Source: Pseudodesulfovibrio portus (lineage in GTDB: Bacteria > Desulfobacterota > Desulfovibrionia > Desulfovibrionales > Desulfovibrionaceae). From it: DNA of 64,000 nt. Under the pieces are notes generated by a model. The model ran no database searches. It worked only from the letters and a program-made list of their open reading frames with translations, and was not told the DNA's origin. Positions 39,988-55,959 of the stretch are shown here, in pieces. The first letter of the stretch is position 1, and each line of letters begins with the position of its first letter. Where the stretch lies: positions 3,012,001-3,076,000 of the forward strand of contig NZ_AP026708.1 of the NCBI RefSeq assembly GCF_026000375.1, read 5' to 3'. A program made the position numbers and the translations under genes.

Positions 39988-40461
39988 ATGAATAACAGAA
40001 AGATTGACAAGCTGGATTTGGAAATCCTGAACATACTTCAGGCTGACGGCAAGATATCCAATGCCGAGATCGCGCGGAAGGTGGGCAAGGCCCCTTCGGC
40101 AGTGCTCGAACGGGTACGCAAGCTGAAGAATTCCAGCATCATCAAGGGATATGAGTGCATTGTCAACCACAAGGCACTGGGGCGGGGGCTGACGGCCTTC
40201 ACCTCCATCCGGGTGGAAGAGGGCGTGGGCGCCACCGAAGTGGGCAGCAAGCTCGCCGAATTCCCCGAAGTTCTTGAAGTTCATTATACCGCGGGCCGCG
40301 ACTCCTATCTGGTCAAGGTGCGCGTGGAAGATACGGAAGCGTTGCAGGCCACGCTGGCCAAGTTCGGCACCATCGGGCCGGTCAGGGACACCAACTCAAC
40401 CATCGTGCTGACCACGGTGAAAGAATCCCGGGTCATACCGCTACCCGGAGAAGACGAATAA
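39988..40461 (+). CDS. Lrp/AsnC-family regulator, likely of putA
   Basis: The 157-residue protein has an N-terminal helix-turn-helix (KLDLEILNILQADGKISNAE, then KAPSAVLERVRKLKNSSIIK) and a C-terminal RAM effector domain (VHYTAGRDSYLVKVR). It lies 12 bases upstream of putA on the same strand. Lrp-type regulators commonly activate proline catabolism in response to proline, so a local role is inferred. The annotated ATG lacks a ribosome site, suggesting a leaderless mRNA or a different start. Confidence 0.9.
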   Translation: MNNRKIDKLDLEILNILQADGKISNAEIARKVGKAPSAVLERVRKLKNSSIIKGYECIVNHKALGRGLTAFTSIRVEEGVGATEVGSKLAEFPEVLEVHYTAGRDSYLVKVRVEDTEALQATLAKFGTIGPVRDTNSTIVLTTVKESRVIPLPGEDE

Positions 40462-40473
40462 CAGGAGCTAAAC

Positions 40474-43400
40474 ATGACGACTGACATCAGCTCCCTGGAC
40501 CCGAGGATCATTGCTCGGGGCAGGGAGTTTTTTTCGTCCATTTCAGGCGAATCTCCTTCGGTTTTCAACAAGGGCTGGTGGACCGGAAAGGTCATGGATT
40601 GGGCCATGAAAAACGAGGATTTCAAGGTCCAAATGTTCAGGTTTGTTGATGTTCTTCCTTACCTGAACACCTCGGAGTCGCTTTCGCGCCATATCGAAGA
40701 ATATTTTGCAGGCGACGATTCCAACATTCCCGACGTCCTCAAATGGGGGGCCACCAAGACCAAGATCGGCGGCGGTCTGGTGGCCAAGGTCCTGAACAAG
40801 ACCATCCGCTCCAACATCGAGTCCATGGCCCGCCAGTTCATCATCGGGCAGGTCTCCAAGGAGGCGGTCAAGGGCATCAAGAAGCTCCGCAAGGACGGCT
40901 TCGCCTTTGTCCTGGACCTGCTGGGCGAGGCCACCGTGTCCGAGGTGGAGTCCGACGCCTATCGCGAAGGGTACATGGAAGTGCTGGAAGCCATCCAGAA
41001 GGAGCTGGCCAAGTGGAAGCCCCTGGACGGCGGCGGTGACGACCTCGATTGGGGGCACGCTCCCAAGGTCAACGTGGCGGTCAAGCCGTCCGCGTTCTAT
41101 TCCCAGTCCAAGCCCGTGGACATGGACGGCACCGTGGAAGGCATGATGTCCCGCATCGAGCCCATCTACAGGAAGGTCATGGAGATGGGCGGGTTCATGT
41201 GCATCGACATGGAGCAGCTCAAGTACAAGGGCGCCACCGTCGAGTTGTACAAGCGGCTGCGCACCAAATATCCCGACTACCCGCACCTGGGCATCGTGTT
41301 CCAGGCCTACCTCCGCTCCACGGACGAAGACGTGCGCGGCCTCCTGGCCTGGGCCCGCGAGACGGGACTGCCGATCTCCATACGTCTGGTCAAGGGCGCA
41401 TACTGGGATTACGAGACCGTCCTGGCCAAGCAGAACGGCTGGCCCGTGCCGGTCTGGACGCACAAGCCCGAGTCCGACATGGCCTTTGAGCGCGCCGCCA
41501 GGATGATCCTTGAAAACGCCGACATCTGCCATTTCGCCTGCGCCTCGCACAACATCCGCACCATCTCCGCCGTCATGGAGATGGCCGCCGACATGAACGT
41601 GGCCGAGGACCGCTACGAGTTCCAGGTGCTCTACGGCATGGCCGAGCCCGTCCGAAAGGGCCTCAAGAACGTGGCCAGGCGGGTGCGCCTGTACTGCCCC
41701 TACGGCGACCTGCTGCCCGGCATGGCCTATCTGGTCCGCCGGTTGCTGGAGAATACGGCAAACGAGTCATTCCTCAAGCAGACCTTTGCCGACGAGGCTG
41801 ACATGGACCGGCTCCTGGAGAACCCGGAGGCCACCCTGCGCCGCCAGTTGGAAGGCAAGTGCGTTGCGCCCGAGCCCGAAGCGCAGGGCGGGCTGCCCCG
41901 TTTCGCCAACTTCCCGCCTTCGGACTTCACCATCGAGGCCGAGCGCGCCGCCTACCCCGAGGCCATTGCCAGGGTGCGCGGCGTCATGGGCAAGGAGGTC
42001 CCCCTGTTCATCAACGGGCAGGAGGTCCGCACTGGCGACCATCTGGATTCCTACAACCCGGCCGATCCGTCCGAGATCATCGGGTCCGTCTGCCAGGCGG
42101 GCGTGGCTGAGGCGGACGACGCCATCGCTGCCGCCTCCGAAGCCTATCTGTCCTGGCGCGACGTGCCCGCCGAGGAACGCGCCGAGGTCCTGCTCAAGGC
42201 GGCCCGGTACCTCAAGGACAATATCCACGACCTGTCCGCCATGCAGATCCTGGAAGTGGGCAAGCAGTGGGATCAGGCCCAGGCCGACGTGGCCGAGGCC
42301 ATCGACTTCCTGGAATATTACGCCCGCGAGATGATCCGGCTGGGCAACCCCCGCCGCATGGGCCGCGCCCCAGGCGAGATGTCCCAGCTCTTCTACCAGG
42401 GCAAGGGCGTGGCTGCGGTCATCGCGCCGTGGAACTTCCCCCTGGCCATCTCCGTGGGCATGGTCTCCGCAGCCATCGTGTCCGGCTGCCCCGTGGTCTA
42501 CAAGCCCGCCGGGATTTCCTCCTGCGTGGGCTACGGCCTGGTGGAGATGTGGAAGGCCGCAGGACTGCCCGACGGCGTGTTCAACTACATTCCGGGCCGG
42601 GGTTCGGTCATCGGCGACCATATCGTCGAGCACCCCGACGTATCCGTCATCGCCTTCACCGGCTCCATGGAGGTCGGCCTGCGCATCCAGGAAAAGGCGG
42701 CCAGGGTCCAGCCGGGCCAGCAGCAGTGCAAGCGGGTCATCGCCGAGATGGGCGGCAAGAACGCCACCATCATCGACGACGACGCCGACCTGGACGAGGC
42801 CGTGCTCGGCGTGCTGTATGCCGCCTTCGGCTTCCAGGGCCAGAAGTGCTCGGCCTGTTCGCGGGTCATCGTCCTCGACGCGGTCTACGACCGGTTCGTG
42901 GAGCGCCTGACCGAGGCGGCCAGGTCCGTCAAGCTCGGCCCGTCCGAGAATCCGGCCAACTACATGGGCCCGGTGGTGGACAAGGCTGCCCGGGAAAATG
43001 TGCTGCGCTACGTCAAGATCGCCGAGGAGGAGGGCAACGTGCTGGTCAAGCGCGAGGTGTCCGACGACCTCAAGGCCACGGGCGGCTGCTACGTGCCGTT
43101 GACCATCGTGGACGGCATCACCAGGGAGCACCGCATCGCCCGGGAAGAGGTGTTCGGCCCTGTGCTGGCGGTCATGCGCGCCAAGGACATGAATGACGCC
43201 ATCGATATCGCCAACTCCACCCGGTTCGCCCTGACCGGGGCCATCTACTCCCGGTCCCCGGCCAATCTGGAGCTGGCCTACAAGCAGTTCCGCGTCGGCA
43301 ACCTCTACCTGAACAAGCCTTCGGTCGGCGCACTGGTGGAACGCCACGCCTTCGGCGGCTTCAAGATGTCCGGCGTGGGCTCCAAGTCCGGCGGCCCCGA

Positions 43401-43497
43401 CTACCTGCTCCAGTTCCTCGATCCGCGCCTGGTCTGCGAAAACACCATGCGCCGTGGCTTCGCTCCCATCGAGGAGGAGGACGACTGGCTCGGTTAG
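40474..43497 (+). CDS. putA: Bifunctional proline dehydrogenase / glutamate semialdehyde dehydrogenase
   Basis: The 1007-residue enzyme oxidises proline to glutamate in two steps. A FAD-binding proline dehydrogenase barrel (about residues 130-430) shows IRLVKGAYWDYE at residue 303. An aldehyde dehydrogenase domain (about 510-990) shows the Glu of EMGGKNAT near 758 and catalytic Cys in FQGQKCSACSR near 792. There is no N-terminal ribbon-helix-helix DNA-binding domain, so it is not a self-regulating PutA; the upstream Lrp-type gene may do this. TAACAGGAGCTAAAC precedes the ATG. Confidence 0.95.
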   Translation: MTTDISSLDPRIIARGREFFSSISGESPSVFNKGWWTGKVMDWAMKNEDFKVQMFRFVDVLPYLNTSESLSRHIEEYFAGDDSNIPDVLKWGATKTKIGGGLVAKVLNKTIRSNIESMARQFIIGQVSKEAVKGIKKLRKDGFAFVLDLLGEATVSEVESDAYREGYMEVLEAIQKELAKWKPLDGGGDDLDWGHAPKVNVAVKPSAFYSQSKPVDMDGTVEGMMSRIEPIYRKVMEMGGFMCIDMEQLKYKGATVELYKRLRTKYPDYPHLGIVFQAYLRSTDEDVRGLLAWARETGLPISIRLVKGAYWDYETVLAKQNGWPVPVWTHKPESDMAFERAARMILENADICHFACASHNIRTISAVMEMAADMNVAEDRYEFQVLYGMAEPVRKGLKNVARRVRLYCPYGDLLPGMAYLVRRLLENTANESFLKQTFADEADMDRLLENPEATLRRQLEGKCVAPEPEAQGGLPRFANFPPSDFTIEAERAAYPEAIARVRGVMGKEVPLFINGQEVRTGDHLDSYNPADPSEIIGSVCQAGVAEADDAIAAASEAYLSWRDVPAEERAEVLLKAARYLKDNIHDLSAMQILEVGKQWDQAQADVAEAIDFLEYYAREMIRLGNPRRMGRAPGEMSQLFYQGKGVAAVIAPWNFPLAISVGMVSAAIVSGCPVVYKPAGISSCVGYGLVEMWKAAGLPDGVFNYIPGRGSVIGDHIVEHPDVSVIAFTGSMEVGLRIQEKAARVQPGQQQCKRVIAEMGGKNATIIDDDADLDEAVLGVLYAAFGFQGQKCSACSRVIVLDAVYDRFVERLTEAARSVKLGPSENPANYMGPVVDKAARENVLRYVKIAEEEGNVLVKREVSDDLKATGGCYVPLTIVDGITREHRIAREEVFGPVLAVMRAKDMNDAIDIANSTRFALTGAIYSRSPANLELAYKQFRVGNLYLNKPSVGALVERHAFGGFKMSGVGSKSGGPDYLLQFLDPRLVCENTMRRGFAPIEEEDDWLG

Positions 43498-43590: not shown

Positions 43591-44385
43591 CTAGGCCAGG
43601 GCGGGCCGTTTCGCGCCGAGCCTGTCCAGAAGATTCTCGATGATGGCGTCGATGCGTTCGGTCTCGGGCAGGCCGAGGACCGAGCCGTCCGTCATCTGCC
43701 GTTCCATCAGGCCGGGGAGGGGCGGTATGGTGACGCTCCATTCGGGCAGGCCGTCCAGGGCGGGCGGGGTGCCGTGGGCGAGCCGGTTGATGACCAGGGC
43801 CTGGTTGGTCAGGCCGAGGTCCGTTGCCATGCGCCCGACCTCCGCGCCGGTCTGCAGGCTGCGCATGGACGGTTCGGAGACCACCACCAGCCCGTCCACG
43901 TGGGCCACGGTGCCGCGTCCCAGGTGTTCCACGCCCGCTTCCAGGTCCACCAGGACCCAGTCGTCGCGGTCCATGACGATATGGGCCAGGACCGCCTTGA
44001 GCAGGGCGTTGGCGTCGCAGGCGCAGCCGCCGCCCGCGTTGGTCACGGCTCCCATGACGATGAGCCGCTTGCGGCCCGGAGTGACGCCCGGTCGGGCAGG
44101 GCCGCCGAGGGGCACGTCCACGGCCAGGGTCTCCGGCAGGTCGTCCACGTCGGGATTGAGATTCAGGAATCCGCCCGCGTGGATGCGGTCGCGGACCAGG
44201 TCCCCGCGCCGGATGAGCGGCTCGGGCAGGTCCCCGGCGGCCAGTCCCGACGCCTGTCCCAGGGACAGGGCGGTGTCCGCGTCGATCATCCACACATTGC
44301 GCCCGGTGCGGGCGAGGTGGTCGGCCATCCATGCCGTGAGGGACGTTTTGCCCACGCCCCCCTTGCCGGCGAATGCTATCTTCAT
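43591..44385 (-). CDS. cooC: Carbon monoxide dehydrogenase maturation ATPase CooC
   Basis: The 264-residue P-loop ATPase begins MKIAFAGKGGVGKTSLTAW, the deviant Walker A of the MinD/CooC family. It has DWVLVDLEAGVEHLGRGT, typical of CooC, and a Cys pair in GGGCACDANA that may hold the nickel/zinc dimer site. CooC inserts nickel into CooS. The ATG at 44385 follows GGAGATCGC; the open frame further upstream is only a shadow of cooS. It follows cooS on the same strand. Confidence 0.93.
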   Translation of the reverse strand: MKIAFAGKGGVGKTSLTAWMADHLARTGRNVWMIDADTALSLGQASGLAAGDLPEPLIRRGDLVRDRIHAGGFLNLNPDVDDLPETLAVDVPLGGPARPGVTPGRKRLIVMGAVTNAGGGCACDANALLKAVLAHIVMDRDDWVLVDLEAGVEHLGRGTVAHVDGLVVVSEPSMRSLQTGAEVGRMATDLGLTNQALVINRLAHGTPPALDGLPEWSVTIPPLPGLMERQMTDGSVLGLPETERIDAIIENLLDRLGAKRPALA

Positions 44386-44441: not shown

Positions 44442-46319
44442 CTACTTGTCCAGTCCGAGGCCCTTGCGCTTGGCGTTGATCCGCTCCTCGAACAGGTCCG
44501 CCGTCTTGACGGGGTCGGGTTCGATGAAGAAGGTCGCGCCCACCAGGTCTTCCAGGCCGGAGACGGCCAGGTTGGTGACGGTCTCGGAGCCGAGGATGTT
44601 CGGCGGGTGGCCGAGGTGGGTGTAGATGCCCGAGGCCACGGCGTAGAGGCCGATGGCGGCGGCCTTTTCCGAGTACCACTCGGGCGAGGACGCGCCCACG
44701 GGCAGGTCGGAGATGTCCACGTTCAGGGTGTTGGCCAGGGCCGCGCAGAGCTGCATGATGCGGGAGTTGTCCACGCAGGACCCGTAGTGCAGGACCGGCG
44801 GGATGCCCAGGGAACCGCAGACCTTTTTCAGGCCCGGACCGGCCATCTCGATGGCGCCGGGCACGAGCAGTCCCGCCTTGCCCGCCGCGGTGGTGACGCA
44901 GCCGGTTGCGATGACCAGGATGTCGCGCTTGATCAGTTCCTTGGCCAGGCCGACGTTCAGGGAGTCGTGTTTGATCTTGGGGTTGTTGCAGCCCACGATG
45001 CCGACAGCGCCCTTGATGTCGCCCGCCACGATGGCCTGGATCAGCGGATCAAGGGAGCCGCCGAGGGCCTCGATGACGGCCTCGTTGGAGAAGCCGGTCA
45101 TGATCTCGATCGGTTCGCCCGGGATTTCCACGCGACCGGCGTCGCGCTCGGCGAACGCCTCGACCGCGATGGACACGATTTCCTTGGCCTGCTGCATGGC
45201 CGTGCGCGGCTGGAAGTCGAAGTGGATGGCCCCGGTGAAGCGGGCCTTGTTGGCGGTGTCGATGAATTTGGTGTGGTAGCAGCCGGCCACCTGGACCAGG
45301 GAGGGCATGATGCACTGGTAGTCCACCACGATGGCCTCGACCGCGCCGGTGATGATGGCCAGCTCGGTCATCAGGTGGTTGCCCGCCATGGGGATGCCCT
45401 GGCGCATGAGCAGTTCGTTGCCCGTGCAGCACAGGCCTGCCAGGTTGATGCCGGATGCGCCGAGTTCCTTGGCACGGGCCAGGAGTTCGGGATCGCGGGC
45501 GGCGGCCAGGATCTGCTCGGAGACGACCGGGTTGTGGCCGTGCACCAGGATGTTGACCTGATCCTCTTTGATGACGCCGAGGTTGGCCGTGGACATCCTG
45601 GGCTTGGGTGTGCCGAAGATGACGTCGGACAGTTCGGTGCCGATCATGGAGCCGCCCCAGCCGTCGGCCAGGGCCGTGCGGGCCGCGTGGATGAGGGTGT
45701 TGGGCGCGTCGTTGTCGCAGCCCATGTGGGTGCGGTGCATCATCTCGGCGATCTCGCGGTCAACGCCGCGCGGGGTCATGCCGAGTTTGGCCCACAGGTC
45801 CTTGCGTTTCTGCGGCACGCGGGAAAGGAAGGAGACTTCCTTTTTGCGGGACCCGAAGTCGGCGAAGAAACATTCCATGACGTCCTTGGCCACGTCCATG
45901 ATGTCGCGGCCTGCCTCTTTGATGCCGATCTCACCGGCGATGGTGCGCAGCTTGCCTTCCTCGGTGATCTTGTAGTCCGGAGCCTCGCCTTCGACGATGG
46001 CCTCCAGCACTTCGATGAGGTCGCGGCCGTGATCGGAGTGCCCGGCGGCACCGCCGGTCACGAACCGGCCGAAATTGCGGGCCACGATGACGTCGGCGTC
46101 GGCGCCGCACACGCCGCGCGGTTTTTTCTCGGAGACGCGGCAGGGGCCCATGGTACAGTTGCGGCAGGTGGTGCCCAGTTCACAGAATTTGCAGTGGGGC
46201 GTCTGTTGGTCAAGCCGCTCGTGCACGGTCTCGATGCCTTCGGCCCTGGCCTTCCTGATCATGGCCTTTGCATCGTCCCAGATGGTCAACTGGTCGATAG
46301 GTCTCGGTTCTTTTGCCAT
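44442..46319 (-). CDS. cooS: Anaerobic Ni-Fe-S carbon monoxide dehydrogenase, catalytic subunit
   Basis: The 625-residue enzyme oxidises CO to CO2. N-terminal cluster cysteines are at 43, 46, 52, 55, 60 and 71 (HCKFCELGTTCRNC onward). The 43/46 pair has C-X2-C spacing, the form described for the D. vulgaris enzyme D-cluster. C-cluster candidates are the His of HGHNPVV and Cys in AGLCCTGNE, VDYQCIMPS, VGCNNPK, ATGCVTTAAG and HYGSCVDNS. The ATG at 46319 follows GGAGGGAAAA; an in-frame TTG at 46331 is part of that region. It is followed by cooC and preceded by a CooA-like gene. Confidence 0.96.
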   Translation of the reverse strand: MAKEPRPIDQLTIWDDAKAMIRKARAEGIETVHERLDQQTPHCKFCELGTTCRNCTMGPCRVSEKKPRGVCGADADVIVARNFGRFVTGGAAGHSDHGRDLIEVLEAIVEGEAPDYKITEEGKLRTIAGEIGIKEAGRDIMDVAKDVMECFFADFGSRKKEVSFLSRVPQKRKDLWAKLGMTPRGVDREIAEMMHRTHMGCDNDAPNTLIHAARTALADGWGGSMIGTELSDVIFGTPKPRMSTANLGVIKEDQVNILVHGHNPVVSEQILAAARDPELLARAKELGASGINLAGLCCTGNELLMRQGIPMAGNHLMTELAIITGAVEAIVVDYQCIMPSLVQVAGCYHTKFIDTANKARFTGAIHFDFQPRTAMQQAKEIVSIAVEAFAERDAGRVEIPGEPIEIMTGFSNEAVIEALGGSLDPLIQAIVAGDIKGAVGIVGCNNPKIKHDSLNVGLAKELIKRDILVIATGCVTTAAGKAGLLVPGAIEMAGPGLKKVCGSLGIPPVLHYGSCVDNSRIMQLCAALANTLNVDISDLPVGASSPEWYSEKAAAIGLYAVASGIYTHLGHPPNILGSETVTNLAVSGLEDLVGATFFIEPDPVKTADLFEERINAKRKGLGLDK

Positions 46320-46424
46320 TTTTCCCTCCAAATCTGCTTGTCCCGGGCAATGTTTTTACGCGCCGGAAATATTGAAGAAACCCTATTGCTGGCCTGTAGC
46401 TTACACCACCGGGGGCAAAGGGTA

Positions 46425-46440
46425 TGTCGGATACCCGACA
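46425..46440 (-). promoter_or_regulatory. CooA-type operator upstream of cooS
   Basis: TGTCGGATACCCGACA contains a perfect 6-bp inverted repeat (TGTCGG/CCGACA) around four bases. It closely matches the known CooA target form TGTC-N8-GACA. It lies about 105 bases before the cooS start, between the CooA-like gene and cooS. Confidence 0.75.
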
Positions 46441-46503
46441 AAACAGGCAGGATGAGCGAAAAAGAATTGAGGGTAGGGGCTGGGCCGGGGGGAGCTTGGA
46501 TAA

Positions 46504-47166
46504 TCAGGCCGCGTTTTTGTCCGCCTGCCGCGAGAGTTCATCCATGTCCGGGATGCAATACCTGCCGCGTCCGGTTTTTTTGATCAGTCCGTCCCGTTCC
46601 AGATTGTTGAGCAGGGTGGATACGGTCTGGCGGGTTGCGCCCATGAGCAGGGAGAGCTGTTCGATGGTCAGGTCGAATCGCAACTCAACGCCGCCGTCCT
46701 CCAGCTTCGTGCCGTGAGTATCGGCCTCGACGAGGATGTAGCTCAACAGTCGGTCGCGGATGTCCTTGAAGGCGAGGTCGCCGATGATGGAAAAGGAGTT
46801 GCGCAGGATGTGCCCCAGAACCCGCACCATGGTCCGGGTGAACAGGGGGACCCTGGCCATGACGGTCTTTACCTCTTTTACGCCCGCGAGCAGCAGGGTG
46901 GTGTCGTCAAAGGCCTGGATGTAGCAGTCCGCATGGGTGGCGTAGAGGTCGCCCGGATTCAGGATGGCCAGGGTGAACTCCTTGTCCCCGTAAGCCAGGT
47001 AAATCCGCACGCGCCCCTTGGAGATGACGAAGACGAGATCGTCTTCCGCCTCCGGGGTGTAGATGATGTGGTCCTTGACGAAGGAGCGCTCGTGGAATGC
47101 GGCCCGCAGTTCGGCCAGTTCCGATTTGCCCAGTTCGTCAAGGAGATTGATGCCGGAGAATTTCAT
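46504..47166 (-). CDS. cooA: CRP/FNR-family regulator, candidate CO sensor CooA
   Basis: The 220-residue protein has an N-terminal cyclic-nucleotide-type domain and a C-terminal winged helix (LTIEQLSLLMGATRQTVS). The segment GDLYATHADCYIQA aligns with the heme-binding stretch of CooA. His78 matches the CooA heme ligand His77, while Ala76 replaces the redox-switch ligand Cys75 of the Rhodospirillum protein. It lies directly upstream of cooS with a CooA-like operator between. No FNR iron-sulfur cysteine set is visible. A plain CRP homologue is the alternative. Confidence 0.8.
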   Translation of the reverse strand: MKFSGINLLDELGKSELAELRAAFHERSFVKDHIIYTPEAEDDLVFVISKGRVRIYLAYGDKEFTLAILNPGDLYATHADCYIQAFDDTTLLLAGVKEVKTVMARVPLFTRTMVRVLGHILRNSFSIIGDLAFKDIRDRLLSYILVEADTHGTKLEDGGVELRFDLTIEQLSLLMGATRQTVSTLLNNLERDGLIKKTGRGRYCIPDMDELSRQADKNAA

Positions 47167-47269
47167 GGCCGCCCCTCCCCCATGGTCTATGGTGTTTCAG
47201 TATAGCACGACGGCAGGAGAGCGTCCAACCGGCAAAGGCGTGCCAAGTGACGCCGGGGGTCGCGGGTGG

Positions 47270-51738: not shown

Positions 51739-52188
51739 CTACTTGTCCATTTTGAAATCGACCTTGATCTTGAACAGCTTGCTCGCGGGCAGGTTCAGGA
51801 CCTTGATGCCCGTGGCTTCGGTGATGGAAGCCAGGATTGCCTCCACCGCGTCCATGTCCGGGGCGATCAGCGCAAACCAGACATTGAATTCGTTCTCGCG
51901 CAGATAGTTGTGCGTCACGCCGTCGTGTCCGTTCACTTCGGCCACGAATTCGTCCAGCTTGTCCTCGGGCACGCTGGCCGCGCACAGGGTTGACTGCCAG
52001 CCCAGCGACTGGGAGCTGAAGTTCGCCCCCATGCGCCGGATGAGCCCGGATTTCTTCATGTCCCGAACACGGCCCAGTACGTCCGTCTCGCTCAACCCTA
52101 CCTGCTTGCCCACTTCCTCGTAAGGACGGGAGGTCAGCGGGAAGTGGGACTGGATGATGTCGAGTATCTGCTTGTCGTATGCGTCCAT
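51739..52188 (-). CDS. ahbA: Siroheme decarboxylase subunit (AhbA/AhbB, Lrp-like fold)
   Basis: The 149-residue protein has an AsnC/Lrp-like N-terminal helix-turn-helix (YDKQILDIIQSHFPLTSRPY, LGRVRDMKKSGLIRRMGANF) and the family block GVTHNYLRENEFNVWFALI. AhbA and AhbB together decarboxylate siroheme to 12,18-didecarboxysiroheme. Only one of the pair is here; choosing AhbA over AhbB is a guess. The ribosome site GGAGG belongs to the adjacent hairpin repeat. Nearby ahbC, hemB and ahbD support the pathway. Confidence 0.82.
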   Translation of the reverse strand: MDAYDKQILDIIQSHFPLTSRPYEEVGKQVGLSETDVLGRVRDMKKSGLIRRMGANFSSQSLGWQSTLCAASVPEDKLDEFVAEVNGHDGVTHNYLRENEFNVWFALIAPDMDAVEAILASITEATGIKVLNLPASKLFKIKVDFKMDK

Positions 52189-52196
52189 GGATGATG

Positions 52197-52280
52197 CCTC
52201 CGGCGGCCAAGGGGGAACCCTTTGAGAAGGGTTTCCCCCTTGGATCCCCCTTCCTAAACTTTTTGTCGCGCCTTCGGCGG
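52197..52280 (-). repeat. Dispersed hairpin repeat, copy B (minus orientation)
   Basis: Read on the minus strand it is CAAAAAGTTTAGGAAGGGGG, a hairpin of AAGGGGGAAACCC type, and GGCCGCCGGAGG. This is the same order as copies A and D. Its final GGAGG lies eight bases before the ATG of the siroheme decarboxylase gene and serves as its ribosome site. Confidence 0.72.
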
Positions 52281-52351
52281 GGCCGTGTCAGCGCGGTGAA
52301 TACTCATCATTTATAAATATCTGGTCAAATCGGGCTTTTTCCCGTGACCCC

Positions 52352-52409
52352 CACCCTCCGCGAAGCGGCACAAAAAGCTTTGGAAAAGGATGGGGATGGG
52401 GGTCCGGAG
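52352..52409 (+). repeat. Dispersed hairpin repeat, partial copy C
   Basis: CGCGAAGCGGCACAAAAAGC and then GGAAAAGGATGGGGATGGGG and GTCCGGAGGCC match the left half of copies A and D. The central hairpin arm is missing. It abuts the ahbD stop codon. With copy B it forms a head-to-head pair in the ahbD-ahbA gap; 52281-52351 between them shows nothing else I can name. Confidence 0.6.
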
Positions 52410-52411
52410 GC

Positions 52412-53602
52412 CTATTTCTTGGGCCTCTTTTTCGGCGTATAGGAGCACAAAGGCTCTTCCTTGAGGTAATGGCCGTTCATGGTCTTGGCGCGGGCCCGGC
52501 AGCCGCCGCAGACCTTTTCGTATTCGCAGTAGCCGCACTTGCCGTCGTACACGTCCGGGTTGCGCAGGTTGAGGAACTCCGGTGACTGCTTCCAGATTTC
52601 CGGGAACGGGATCTCGCGGACGTTGCCGCAGTCGAGTTCCAGGTAGCCGCAGGGCTGGACCTGGCCCCGGTGGGAGATGAAGCAGAAACCGATGCCGCCC
52701 AGGCAGCCGCGGGAAACGGCGTCCAGGCCGAAGTTCTCGAAGTTGACCGGCGTGCCTTCTTCCTTGGCGCGCTGGCGCAGGATGCGATGGTAGTGGGGCG
52801 CACAGGTGGCCTTGAGTTGCATGGCCGTGGTCTTGCGGAAGTCGTAGAACCAGTTGAGCACGTCCTCGTACTCCTGGGCGGTGATGACCTCGGTGCCCAG
52901 TTCCACGGCCCGGCCCGTGGGCACGAGCAGGAAGATGTGCCAGGCGGACGCACCGATCTCTTCGCACAGGTTGAAGATGTCCTTGAACAGGTGGAGGTTG
53001 TTCTTGGTCACCGTGGTGTTGATCTGGAACTCGATGCCCACGTCCTTGAGATACCGGATGCCGCGCATGGAGGCGTCGAATGCGCCGACCTCGCCCCGGA
53101 ATTCGTCGTGCTGGGCGGCCTCGGGCGCGTCGATGGAGATGGAGCACCGCTCGATGCCCGCGTCCTTCATCTGCCGTGCGGTCTCGGGCGTGATGAGCGT
53201 GCCGTTGGGGGCCATGACGCAGCGCAGTCCCTTGGCCTTGGCGTAACTGATCAGCTCGTACACGTCGTGGCGCATCATGGGCTCGCCGCCGGTGAAGATG
53301 ATGATCGGGCTGCCCACGTCCGGGAAGGTGTCGATGAGCGCCTTGGCCTCTTCGGTGGACAGTTCGCCCTCGTAGGGTTCGGGGTGCGCCTCGGCCCGGC
53401 AGTGCTTGCAGGCCAGGTTGCAGGAACGGGTCACTTCCCAGGCGATGAGCCGGCAGATGGGGGTGACGCCGTCGTCGAGATATTTTTTGGGCGCATGCTC
53501 CGCGCCGGGGTGTGCCTTGCCGTGGGGATGGGTGCCGGGGTGTCCGCCGGGATGACCCTCGGGGGGACAGCCGCCGGGATGGCCTTTGGGATGTTCGCTC
53601 AT
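52412..53602 (-). CDS. ahbD: Heme synthase AhbD (Fe-coproporphyrin III decarboxylase, radical SAM)
   Basis: The 396-residue protein has the radical-SAM motif in RSCNLACKHCRAEA (near residue 61-71), FTGGEPMMRHDVYE, and C-terminal auxiliary-cluster cysteines (CGYCEYEKVCGGCRARAK, then EPLCSY) typical of AhbD. It converts iron-coproporphyrin III to heme b. Residues 1-37 form a His/Pro/Gly-rich leader with about eight His, resembling a metal-binding tail. It starts one base after hemB ends. Confidence 0.9.
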   Translation of the reverse strand: MSEHPKGHPGGCPPEGHPGGHPGTHPHGKAHPGAEHAPKKYLDDGVTPICRLIAWEVTRSCNLACKHCRAEAHPEPYEGELSTEEAKALIDTFPDVGSPIIIFTGGEPMMRHDVYELISYAKAKGLRCVMAPNGTLITPETARQMKDAGIERCSISIDAPEAAQHDEFRGEVGAFDASMRGIRYLKDVGIEFQINTTVTKNNLHLFKDIFNLCEEIGASAWHIFLLVPTGRAVELGTEVITAQEYEDVLNWFYDFRKTTAMQLKATCAPHYHRILRQRAKEEGTPVNFENFGLDAVSRGCLGGIGFCFISHRGQVQPCGYLELDCGNVREIPFPEIWKQSPEFLNLRNPDVYDGKCGYCEYEKVCGGCRARAKTMNGHYLKEEPLCSYTPKKRPKK

Positions 53603-53603
53603 G

Positions 53604-54584
53604 TTATTTCAATGCCTTGAGTACGTCTTCGGTGAAGTAAGTCAGGATCAGGTCGGCCCCGGCGCGCTTGAAGGCGACCAGGGATTCCATGATCACGCCC
53701 ATCTCGTCGATCCAGCCGTTTTGGGCGGCGGCCTTGATCATCGAGTATTCGCCGCTGACCTGGTAGACGGCCACGGGCGTGTCGAAGTTGTCGCGCACCT
53801 GCCGGACGATGTCGAGATAGGGCAGGCCGGGCTTGACCATCAGGATGTCCGCGCCTTCCTCCAGGTCGGCAACGGCTTCCCGCATGGCTTCGCGACCGTT
53901 GGGCGGGTCCATCTGGTAGGTCTTGCGGTCGCCGAACCGGGGCGCGGATTCCGCTGCCTCGCGAAACGGCCCGTAGAAGGCGGACGCGTACTTGACCGCG
54001 TAGGACATGATCGGGGTGTTGATGAACCCTTCTTCGTCCAGCGCCTCGCGGATGGCGGCCACGCGGCCGTCCATCATGTCGGACGGAGCGACCATGTCGG
54101 CCCCGGCCCTGGCCTGGGCCACGGCGGCCTTGGCCAGGAGATTCAGTGTCGGGTCGTTCTGCACGTAATCATTTTTCACCAGCCCGCAGTGGCCGTGGGA
54201 GGTGTATTCGCACAGGCAGGTGTCGGCGATGACGACCAACTCGGGCCAGCGGTCCTTCAGGAGCCGGATGGCCTTCTGGACGATGCCCGCGTCGTCGTAC
54301 GCGCCGGAGCCGACCTCGTCCTTTTCGGCGGGAATGCCGAACAGGATGCACGCCTTGAGGCCGTCGGCCACGGCTTCGCCGACTTTCCGCTCCAACTGTT
54401 TGAGGGACAGCTGGTACTGGCCGGGCATGGAGGAAATTTCTTTTTTGAATGACTCGTCGTCGGTCTCGACCACGAAGTAGGGCATGATCAGGTCATCGGC
54501 AGTGACCTTGTTTTCCCGGACCAACTCGCGCAGGGCCAGGGAGGTCCGCAAACGGCGTCCACGGTAGAATTCAGCAGGGATCAT
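53604..54584 (-). CDS. hemB: Delta-aminolevulinic acid dehydratase (porphobilinogen synthase)
   Basis: The 326-residue enzyme condenses two aminolevulinates. Schiff-base lysines are Lys198 (SYAVKYAS) and Lys251 (MVKPGLPY). The active-site zinc cysteines 123, 125 and 133 lie in [14 protein letters not shown], so it is the zinc-dependent class. It stands between ahbC and ahbD, giving a local supply of tetrapyrrole precursor for siroheme-derived heme. The ATG follows GGAGCGAAT. Confidence 0.96.
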
Positions 54585-54677
54585 ATTCGCTCCGGATCAG
54601 GTTTATGCAGTTTGAAACCATCTATACCCGATTTCGCCTGCCCCGCAAAGATGTGCAACTTGTGGAGAACGCACGCC

Positions 54678-54758
54678 TTCGAGCGAAGCGAGCGACAAAA
54701 AGTTCTGGAAGGGGGTCCGGGGGAAACCTCTTTCAAGAGGTTCCCCCCGGCCGTCGGA
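54678..54758 (+). repeat. Dispersed hairpin repeat, copy D
   Basis: CGAGCGAAGCGAGCGACAAAAAG is followed by GGAAGGGGGTCCGG, an inverted repeat of CCGGGGGAAACCTCTT with AAGAGGTTCCCCCCGG, and CCGTCGGAG. It lies against the ahbC stop in the ahbC-hemB gap. It is the clearest plus-oriented copy. Confidence 0.72.
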
Positions 54759-54765
54759 GACATTC

Positions 54766-55959
54766 TTACAGCTTTTCGCCGGTGATCTCTTCGTCAGTGA
54801 GGTAGCAGGCGGGGTCCTGCGCCCAGAAGTCGTCGTAGTAGGCTTCGGCCCGGGCGCGGAAGTTGCCGCCGCAGATGTTCAGGAAGCGGCAGGTGGCGCA
54901 GCGGCCGCCCACGTGCGGACGCTTGTCCTTGAGCTTGTGCAGCAGGTCGATGCTCTCGTCGGTCCAGATTTCGGAGAACGGGCGTTCCAGCACGTTGCCG
55001 AAAGTGTGGTGGCGCATGAACTGGTCCGCGTGCACCTTGCCGTCCCAGGAGATGCAGCCGATGCCGCGGCCCGAGGAGTTGCCCTCGTTCATCTTGAGCA
55101 GTTCGAGCACTTCCTTGGCCCGTTCGGGATCTTCCTTGAGCAGGCGGTAGTAGACGTAGGGGCCGTCGGCGTGGTTGTCCACGGTCAGGACTTCCTTGGG
55201 CAGCCCCTTGTCGAAGAGGGCGCGGGTCTTGTCCATGATCAGGTCGACCACTTCGCGGGTTTCCTGGTGGTCCAGGTCTTCCTTGATCAGCTCGGAGCCG
55301 CGTCCGGAGTAGACCAGGTGGTAGAAACAGATGCGGGGAACTTCCATGTCTTCAATGAGATTGAAGAGATGGGGAATCTCCGGGGCGTTGCGCTTGTTGA
55401 TGGTGAAGCGGAGGCCGACCTTGAGGCCTTCGGCCAGACAGTTCTCCACGCCTTTGAGGGCCTGCTTGTAAGCGCCCTTCACGCCGCGAAAATCGTCGTG
55501 CACTTCTTCGGAACCGTCGATGGAGATGCCCACGTAGGACAGGCCGACTTCCTTGAGCTCCTTGGCCTTGCGTTTGGTGATGAGCGTGCCGTTGGTGGAG
55601 ATGACCGCGCGCATGCCCTTGCTGGTGGCGTACTTGGCCAGGTCCACGAGGTCTTCGCGCACCAGGGGTTCGCCGCCGGAGAAGAGCATGACCGGTGCGC
55701 CGAACTGGGCCAGGTCGTCGATCATTTCCATCGCTTTTTCGGTGGAGATGGGGTCCTTGTGATCACTGGGATCGACGGCGTGGGCGTAACAGTGGACACA
55801 TTTGAGGTTGCACCGCTGGGTCATGTTCCAGACCACGACGGGTTTCTTGTCCTTGGAAAACTGCAGCAGGTGGGAGGGCAATTGCCCGGATTCACGACCG
55901 TATCGCAGGGCGTCGGACGTCTCGACTGCGCCGCAGTAGAGTTTTGAAATACCTATCAT
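54766..55959 (-). CDS. ahbC: 12,18-didecarboxysiroheme deacetylase AhbC (radical SAM)
   Basis: The 397-residue protein begins MIGISKLYCGAVETSDALRY, the AhbC hallmark. It has the radical-SAM motif in TQRCNLKCVHCYAHA, then FSGGEPLVREDL, and C-terminal cysteines CATCRFLNICGGNFRARAE. AhbC removes acetate side chains from didecarboxysiroheme to give iron-coproporphyrin III for AhbD. It leads the heme cluster on this strand, separated from hemB by repeat D. AGAGGTATATTTAA precedes the ATG. Confidence 0.92.
   Translation of the reverse strand: MIGISKLYCGAVETSDALRYGRESGQLPSHLLQFSKDKKPVVVWNMTQRCNLKCVHCYAHAVDPSDHKDPISTEKAMEMIDDLAQFGAPVMLFSGGEPLVREDLVDLAKYATSKGMRAVISTNGTLITKRKAKELKEVGLSYVGISIDGSEEVHDDFRGVKGAYKQALKGVENCLAEGLKVGLRFTINKRNAPEIPHLFNLIEDMEVPRICFYHLVYSGRGSELIKEDLDHQETREVVDLIMDKTRALFDKGLPKEVLTVDNHADGPYVYYRLLKEDPERAKEVLELLKMNEGNSSGRGIGCISWDGKVHADQFMRHHTFGNVLERPFSEIWTDESIDLLHKLKDKRPHVGGRCATCRFLNICGGNFRARAEAYYDDFWAQDPACYLTDEEITGEKL

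Follow-up and report, generated by a model that had tools for sequence, protein, structure and literature searches.

The coo locus and its relatives

In the window, the 64-kb stretch of DNA at G000:C1:3012001-3076000 that was analysed as a whole, a regulatory gene, a carbon monoxide dehydrogenase (CODH) gene and a putative maturation gene lie in the order cooA-cooS-cooC, all in the same direction on the minus strand. The features are as follows.

43591-44385, minus strand: cooC-like P-loop NTPase, with CbiA/ParA-type domains
44442-46319, minus strand: cooS, anaerobic Ni-CO dehydrogenase (TIGR01702, 699.7 bits, cut-off 478)
46398-46403, minus strand: TAAGCT, the putative -10 hexamer for cooS, with TA at the conserved offset
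46425-46440, no strand assigned: predicted CooA operator TGTCGGATACCCGACA, a perfect TGTCGG-N4-CCGACA, called from its sequence and its conservation before cooS
46504-47166, minus strand: cooA (predicted), 220 aa, CooA-family CRP/FNR-type CO sensor; open reading frame with its ATG at 47166
46924-46953, minus strand: heme-ligand segment GDLYATHADC, residues 72-81, placed by alignments
46933-46935, minus strand: His78, at the Rhodospirillum rubrum His77 column of the alignments
46939-46941, minus strand: Ala76, at the R. rubrum Cys75 column of the alignments
47146-47166, minus strand: N-terminal arm MKFSGIN, ahead of the LL of the first helix, of fixed length in the group
47199-47227, minus strand: possible sigma-70-like cooA promoter TGGACG-17-TATACT with TG before the second hexamer, from a consensus scan only

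The nearest solved chain to the window CooS is 6b6v (E 3e-297). By position and homology, the cooC-like NTPase is probably the CODH maturation protein, and its homologue adjoins cooS in many of the related loci. The annotation of these genes as a putatively CO-induced cooSC unit is well supported and ordinary. Elsewhere in the window, the segment at 51742-55959 encodes an aminolevulinate dehydratase, two radical SAM/SPASM proteins and an Lrp-like protein with a siroheme decarboxylase-like HTH, and these genes may supply the heme needed by CooA. A PutA-type fused proline dehydrogenase/aldehyde dehydrogenase is encoded at 40474-43497, with an Lrp/AsnC regulator upstream at 39988-40461.

Homologues of the window CooA were sought in 348 genomes of its order and found in 122, with 132 matches whose E was no higher than 1e-20, all of which were read. 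The protein also had homologues in 89 of 199 genomes of the family sample and in 12 of 395 genomes of the phylum sample. A homologue counted as linked if tblastn showed a cooS of more than 50% identity in flanks that reached at most about 1.5 to 3 kb, and by this measure cooS lay within the flanks of the cooA homologue in 107 of the 132 matches. Because of these identity and flank limits, some rows counted as unlinked carry a more divergent cooS-like gene (L054, L058, L067, L071).

A second CooA-like group, with cooS absent from the flanks, makes up 16 of the 27 unlinked rows (L060, L066, L068, L069, L073, L074, L079-L082, L084, L085, L092, L093, L173, L181) and includes L092, the order's only carrier of Cys75. 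Each of these 16 genes is followed by a same-strand open frame of at least 920 aa that runs off the locus, and all six of the frames that were scanned matched Proton_antipo_M, a match to be expected if they encode the CooM-like subunit of a membrane hydrogenase. Of nine frames first chosen beside unlinked cooA-like genes, six had no family, the long ones being mostly antisense shadows. One genome outside the order carries tandem CooA-like genes (L133, L143) that are 48% and 44% identical to the window CooA. A plasmid search for further CooA proteins returned three distant matches, and a search of genome contigs for related loci returned two loci.

The CooA-family regulator and its putative heme ligands

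Membership of the CooA family, which the preliminary description had proposed, is borne out by sequence search and fold comparison, both of which placed CooA structures on top. In phmmer searches the best PDB matches were CooA chains (2fmy, 1.9e-50; 2hkx, 3.2e-48; 6cpb, 2.4e-34; 1ft9, 4.1e-34), and the first match outside CooA, another CRP/FNR protein, stood at 3.1e-14. HTH_Crp_2 matched above its cut-off and cNMP_binding slightly below; in an NCBIfam scan no model reached its cut-off, the top one being another CRP/FNR activator at 42.6 bits versus 211. An AlphaFold model built with an input of 53 window and locus sequences had a mean pLDDT of 90.2 and a pTM of 0.77, and VIA-align matched it to CooA 2hkx with a Z of 25.9 (rmsd 2.1, 214 aligned), the runner-up being a CRP with a Z of 19.4. 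Foldseek ranked 2hkx, 2fmy and 1ft9 first to third, with poor whole-chain superposition for 2fmy (TM 0.56) and 1ft9 (TM 0.55), which likely reflects domains that are arranged differently in these two crystals. By sequence and predicted fold, the window protein is a CooA.

Residues at functional positions are largely retained. Leu116-Gly117 and Leu120 on the C helix of R. rubrum CooA, which we take to be CO pocket residues, are all kept as Leu117, Gly118 and Leu121 and are conserved across the order (129, 129 and 128 of 132 homologues, respectively). The R. rubrum residues Arg177-Gln178-x-x-Ser181, presumably those of DNA recognition, are present in the recognition helix as Arg179, Gln180 and Ser183, found in 131, 129 and 131 of the 132 homologues. 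At the Asn42 position of R. rubrum the window protein has Asp43, as do 44 of the 107 cooS-linked homologues.

Within the heme-ligand segment, Ala76 aligns with Cys75 and His78 with His77 of R. rubrum, just as had been read at the outset, and Cys81 aligns with Cys80. Across the order, the His77 column is His in all 132 homologues. At the Cys75 column Ser is the commonest residue (72 homologues), followed by Thr (29), Ala (21), Val (9) and a single Cys (L092). None of seven further rows from outside the order has Cys at this column; the His is missing in one of them, L142, which at 28% identity to the window CooA is not convincing as a CooA. Cysteine is rare at the Cys75 column in this sample, and several small residues are tolerated. 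These counts correct a framing: the lack of Cys75 does not make the window protein unusual, 131 of the 132 homologues being without it, and in this sample it is a cysteine of the R. rubrum type that stands out, the column varying freely among Ser, Thr, Ala and Val with the His invariant. Youn et al. reportedly treated Cys75 as not conserved among CooA homologues in 2004.

At least 20 changes at this column are required on an unrooted tree of 78 rows, from which rows more than 80% identical to a retained row, as well as L102, L142 and L177, were left out. The three rows with Cys (R. rubrum, Carboxydothermus and L092) lie mutually apart on it. With a sample drawn almost entirely from one order, no root and a long branch to R. 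rubrum, the tree does not tell which state at the column came first.

Carboxydothermus CooA had been cited as a protein that lacks the cysteine and uses other ligands. The first half of that statement is mistaken, since Cys occupies the column in all three solved chains (2fmy, 2hkx and 6cpb), where the segment is GDIFCTH; the second half agrees with PMC6955866, which names Ala2 and His82 as the ligands and reports no ligand transfer when the redox state changes. As Carboxydothermus CooA has the cysteine and reportedly does not use it, Cys at this column is insufficient for thiolate ligation. The Cys75 ferric ligand is a feature of the R. rubrum type only and does not define the family. We reasonably infer for the whole group a redox behaviour unlike that of R. 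rubrum CooA, in that the Cys-to-His switch would be lacking. Open-licence literature was searched for work touching Cys75, the N terminus or the ferric ligands of CooA; among the matches listed, none was titled as dealing with this in Desulfovibrio, and there is no mention of it in the available portions of PMC545781, PMC7306483, PMC9670170, PMC6955866, PMC6085454, PMC6557876 and PMC12750200.

The amino-terminal arm is of nearly constant length. An ATG stands exactly seven codons ahead of the first Leu of the NLL motif in 100 of 106 cooS-linked homologues of the order (one of the 107 rows was dropped), and at each of ten neighbouring codons checked in 0-12 of the 106. The start codon of each homologue was taken as the one nearest to the window's start, which is plainly wrong for L101, and the count of ATG positions serves as a check. 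A Shine-Dalgarno-like 4-mer precedes that ATG in 91 of the 106 and is absent in 15; an upstream in-frame ATG is also present in 34. A mechanistic role for the chain end fits so strict an arm length.

At residue 2, 75 of the 107 cooS-linked homologues have Lys and 19 have Arg. Methionine aminopeptidase usually leaves Met1 in place before such residues, so that by this rule Met1 should stay on. The N-terminal heme ligands of the model proteins are Pro2 and Ala2 (available text of PMC6955866 and PMC9670170). The window CooA has neither and begins Met-Lys. Taking as the basis of comparison the first residues that we assume for R. rubrum and Carboxydothermus CooA, its arm seems two to three residues shorter than theirs; for this reason, and because the AlphaFold model is least sure at the N terminus (pLDDT 74 for residues 1-10), the reach of Met1 to the partner heme is uncertain. 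Residue 1 of the window protein falls opposite chain residue 4 in 2fmy, chain residue 5 in 2hkx and residue 1 in 6cpb: a Met-Arg internal to the full-length Carboxydothermus chains (residue 4 of 2fmy) aligns with the window start, and the heme-domain chain 6cpb starts there. Given this internal Met-Arg, the native start of Carboxydothermus CooA, and hence its 'Ala2' ligand, might need revisiting.

It is conceivable, though we would not expect it, that the cooS-linked CooA proteins of the order form a class with a heme-ligand solution of their own, in which there would be no ferric thiolate and the displaceable ligand would be a retained Met1, coordinating through its amino group or its thioether, on a fixed seven-residue arm two to three residues shorter than in the model proteins. 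Because the arm is fixed, the ligand question can be put to the test across a group of about a hundred natural variants.

The operator before cooS

A perfect TGTCGG/CCGACA site before cooS had been reported, and it is indeed present at 46425-46440, between the genes, its first base lying 121 nt upstream of the cooS ATG on the coding strand. TGTCGGATACCCGACA is the sole exact TGTCG-N6-CGACA within the 64-kb window and the sole TGTCGG-N4-CCGACA without mismatch in the 3,403,863-bp single-contig genome. It fits the consensus TGTCR-N6-YGACR given for the CooA operator upstream of coo genes in the accessible part of PMC6085454, and matches the published consensus TGTCGGCNNGCCGACA save at positions 7 and 10 (PMC545781, in the portion available). 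The genome search for more such sites, which had been suggested along with the operator, yielded no second perfect one and four with one mismatch, all within open reading frames as judged from mechanical ORF lists; with the other near-sites inside ORFs, direct control is predicted for cooSC only. With as many as two mismatches allowed, the genome holds 102 matches per strand versus 177 for a reversed control pattern, and since the count falls below the control, weak matches are uninformative.

Before cooS in the related loci, the operator was found at two mismatches or fewer in 102 of 106 usable upstream regions, compared with about 2% of mononucleotide shuffles (perfect in 45, one mismatch in 32, two in 25, more than two in 4). 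These regions derive from 112 cooS-linked rows (107 of the order and five from outside it), of which five were dropped with the cooS start or upstream region off the contig and then L035, an off-contig artefact whose long region also entered the shuffles; the window's own region and five from outside the order are among the 106. By this sequence comparison, the site is above chance.

A TA dinucleotide lies 22-23 nt downstream of the operator in 80 of 102 sites and is missing at this offset in 22; the next commonest offsets are 1 (32 of 102, within the TAC flanking the site) and 35 (14 of 102). If TAAGCT at this offset is the -10 hexamer, transcription would start near 46391 and the operator centre is predicted to lie at about -41.5 from this start site. 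An operator so centred represents the class II arrangement. Before cooA itself, the scan of the 64-kb window found no TGTCG-N6-CGACA at one mismatch or fewer; the cooA promoter scan gave one candidate versus 0.3 in shuffles.

Other patterns and loci in the genome were set aside or noted separately. TGTCGG-N6-CCGACA was rejected as an operator pattern, having the wrong spacer and six matches against 4.89 expected. A second exact TGTCG-N6-CGACA (G000:C1:1262134, in L001) has two mismatches to TGTCGG-N4-CCGACA and is part of a repeat run, and the ORF list around it shows no gene recognisably related to CO. This run of TGTCGCA/TGCGACA palindromic units (L001 1482-1548) lies upstream of a small ORF (ATG at about 1704, stop at 1952) and is perhaps the operator array of another regulator. 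A NiFe hydrogenase-like cluster with a PF00346 match occurs at L179 2591-7650 (G000:C1:2636590-2641649), and its metal-site motifs are what we take to support assignment to group 4 (Ech-type); the genome scan found no CooA site of one mismatch or fewer before it. A second protein of the Prismane/CO dehydrogenase family (573.7 bits), either a hybrid-cluster protein or a CODH, is encoded at L127 (G000:C1:1875323-1876912).

Proposed mechanism and comparison with known systems

CooA family membership, the heme His, the replaced Cys75 and the operator before cooS together make a CO-activated regulator of cooSC the best reading, and the window protein is very probably a cooS-linked CooA-type CO sensor working by ligand displacement. 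The sequence, its alignment, the operator with its spacing and the order of the genes are observed; for this protein we infer the heme, the CO response, the identity of the ligands, the cooS start site and activation. Heme would be bound on His78. Without CO its other axial site would be occupied from within the dimer, most likely by Met1 at the amino terminus of the partner subunit, and the dimer would not bind DNA. CO would displace this internal ligand, the DNA-binding domains would turn, and the helix with Arg179-Gln180-x-x-Ser183 would bind the palindrome at 46425-46440, centred about 41.5 bp before the cooS start site. Bound CooA would then stand in for a -35 element in recruiting RNA polymerase, as in class II activation, with CO dehydrogenase and its maturation protein as the output. 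With no Cys at position 76, there would be no Cys-to-His ligand switch on reduction.

A thiolate redox switch might nevertheless survive through another residue, if Cys81 rather than the amino terminus or a Cys75-like residue were to ligate the ferric heme. Cys81 is near His78 in sequence and present in the window protein and 41 of the 132 homologues of the order, but the column is Ala in 78 and Thr in 13, and R. rubrum CooA, which has a Cys there too (GDMFCMHSGC), yet reportedly uses Cys75 (PMC6955866, available text), so that we regard this as improbable. The protein could also be a heme CRP/FNR sensor of another signal, such as NO or redox, that stands beside cooS by chance: other heme proteins of this type (DNR, HcpR) sense NO, and general CRP/FNR models match the window protein weakly. 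Its closest relationship in sequence and fold is to CooA, however, cooS lies in the flanks of 107 of 132 homologues and the operator in 102 of 106 upstream regions, and the CooA heme-ligand residues are not kept in HcpR (according to the part of PMC12750200 at hand), which makes such a sensor very unlikely.

Hardest to credit is a chance palindrome before a constitutive cooS. Although short palindromes do occur and genome-wide matches at two mismatches or fewer fall below the control, the site is intergenic, has no second perfect copy in 3.40 Mb, and has its sequence, position and -10 phase conserved in relatives.

R. rubrum CooA (1ft9) shares 33% identity with the window CooA over 193 residues, and its His77, Leu116-Gly117 and Arg177-Gln178-x-x-Ser181 are all matched. 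In contrast, Cys75 is replaced by Ala76 and Asn42 by Asp43, and R. rubrum CooA has Pro2, which the window protein lacks, and a seemingly longer N-terminal arm, with the N terminus that we assume for it. Carboxydothermus hydrogenoformans CooA-1 is closer (40% identity over 211 residues) and alike in fold, His, Leu-Gly and Arg-Gln-Thr-Val-Ser; the two proteins differ at the Cys75 column, which is Cys in CooA-1 and Ala in the window CooA, and no Cys ligation is reported for CooA-1 in the available text of PMC6955866.

According to PMC6557876, which cites Rajeev et al. 2012, cooS expression in D. vulgaris depends on active CooA at low CO. In the CooA regulons of D. vulgaris and D. desulfuricans, the 16-bp palindrome TGTCGGCNNGCCGACA precedes cooSC at -187 and -111 (Rodionov et al. 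2004, PMC545781, in the part available). D. vulgaris has an additional site before its coo hydrogenase operon (same source and portion), whereas the Ech-type hydrogenase cluster of the window genome has no site of one mismatch or fewer. The likeness lies in cooSC behind the 16-bp palindrome, with CooA present. A CooA regulon with this operator was already published for Desulfovibrio in 2004 (PMC545781), and the window protein is an ordinary cooS-linked CooA, whose gene, operator and regulation are known in kind.
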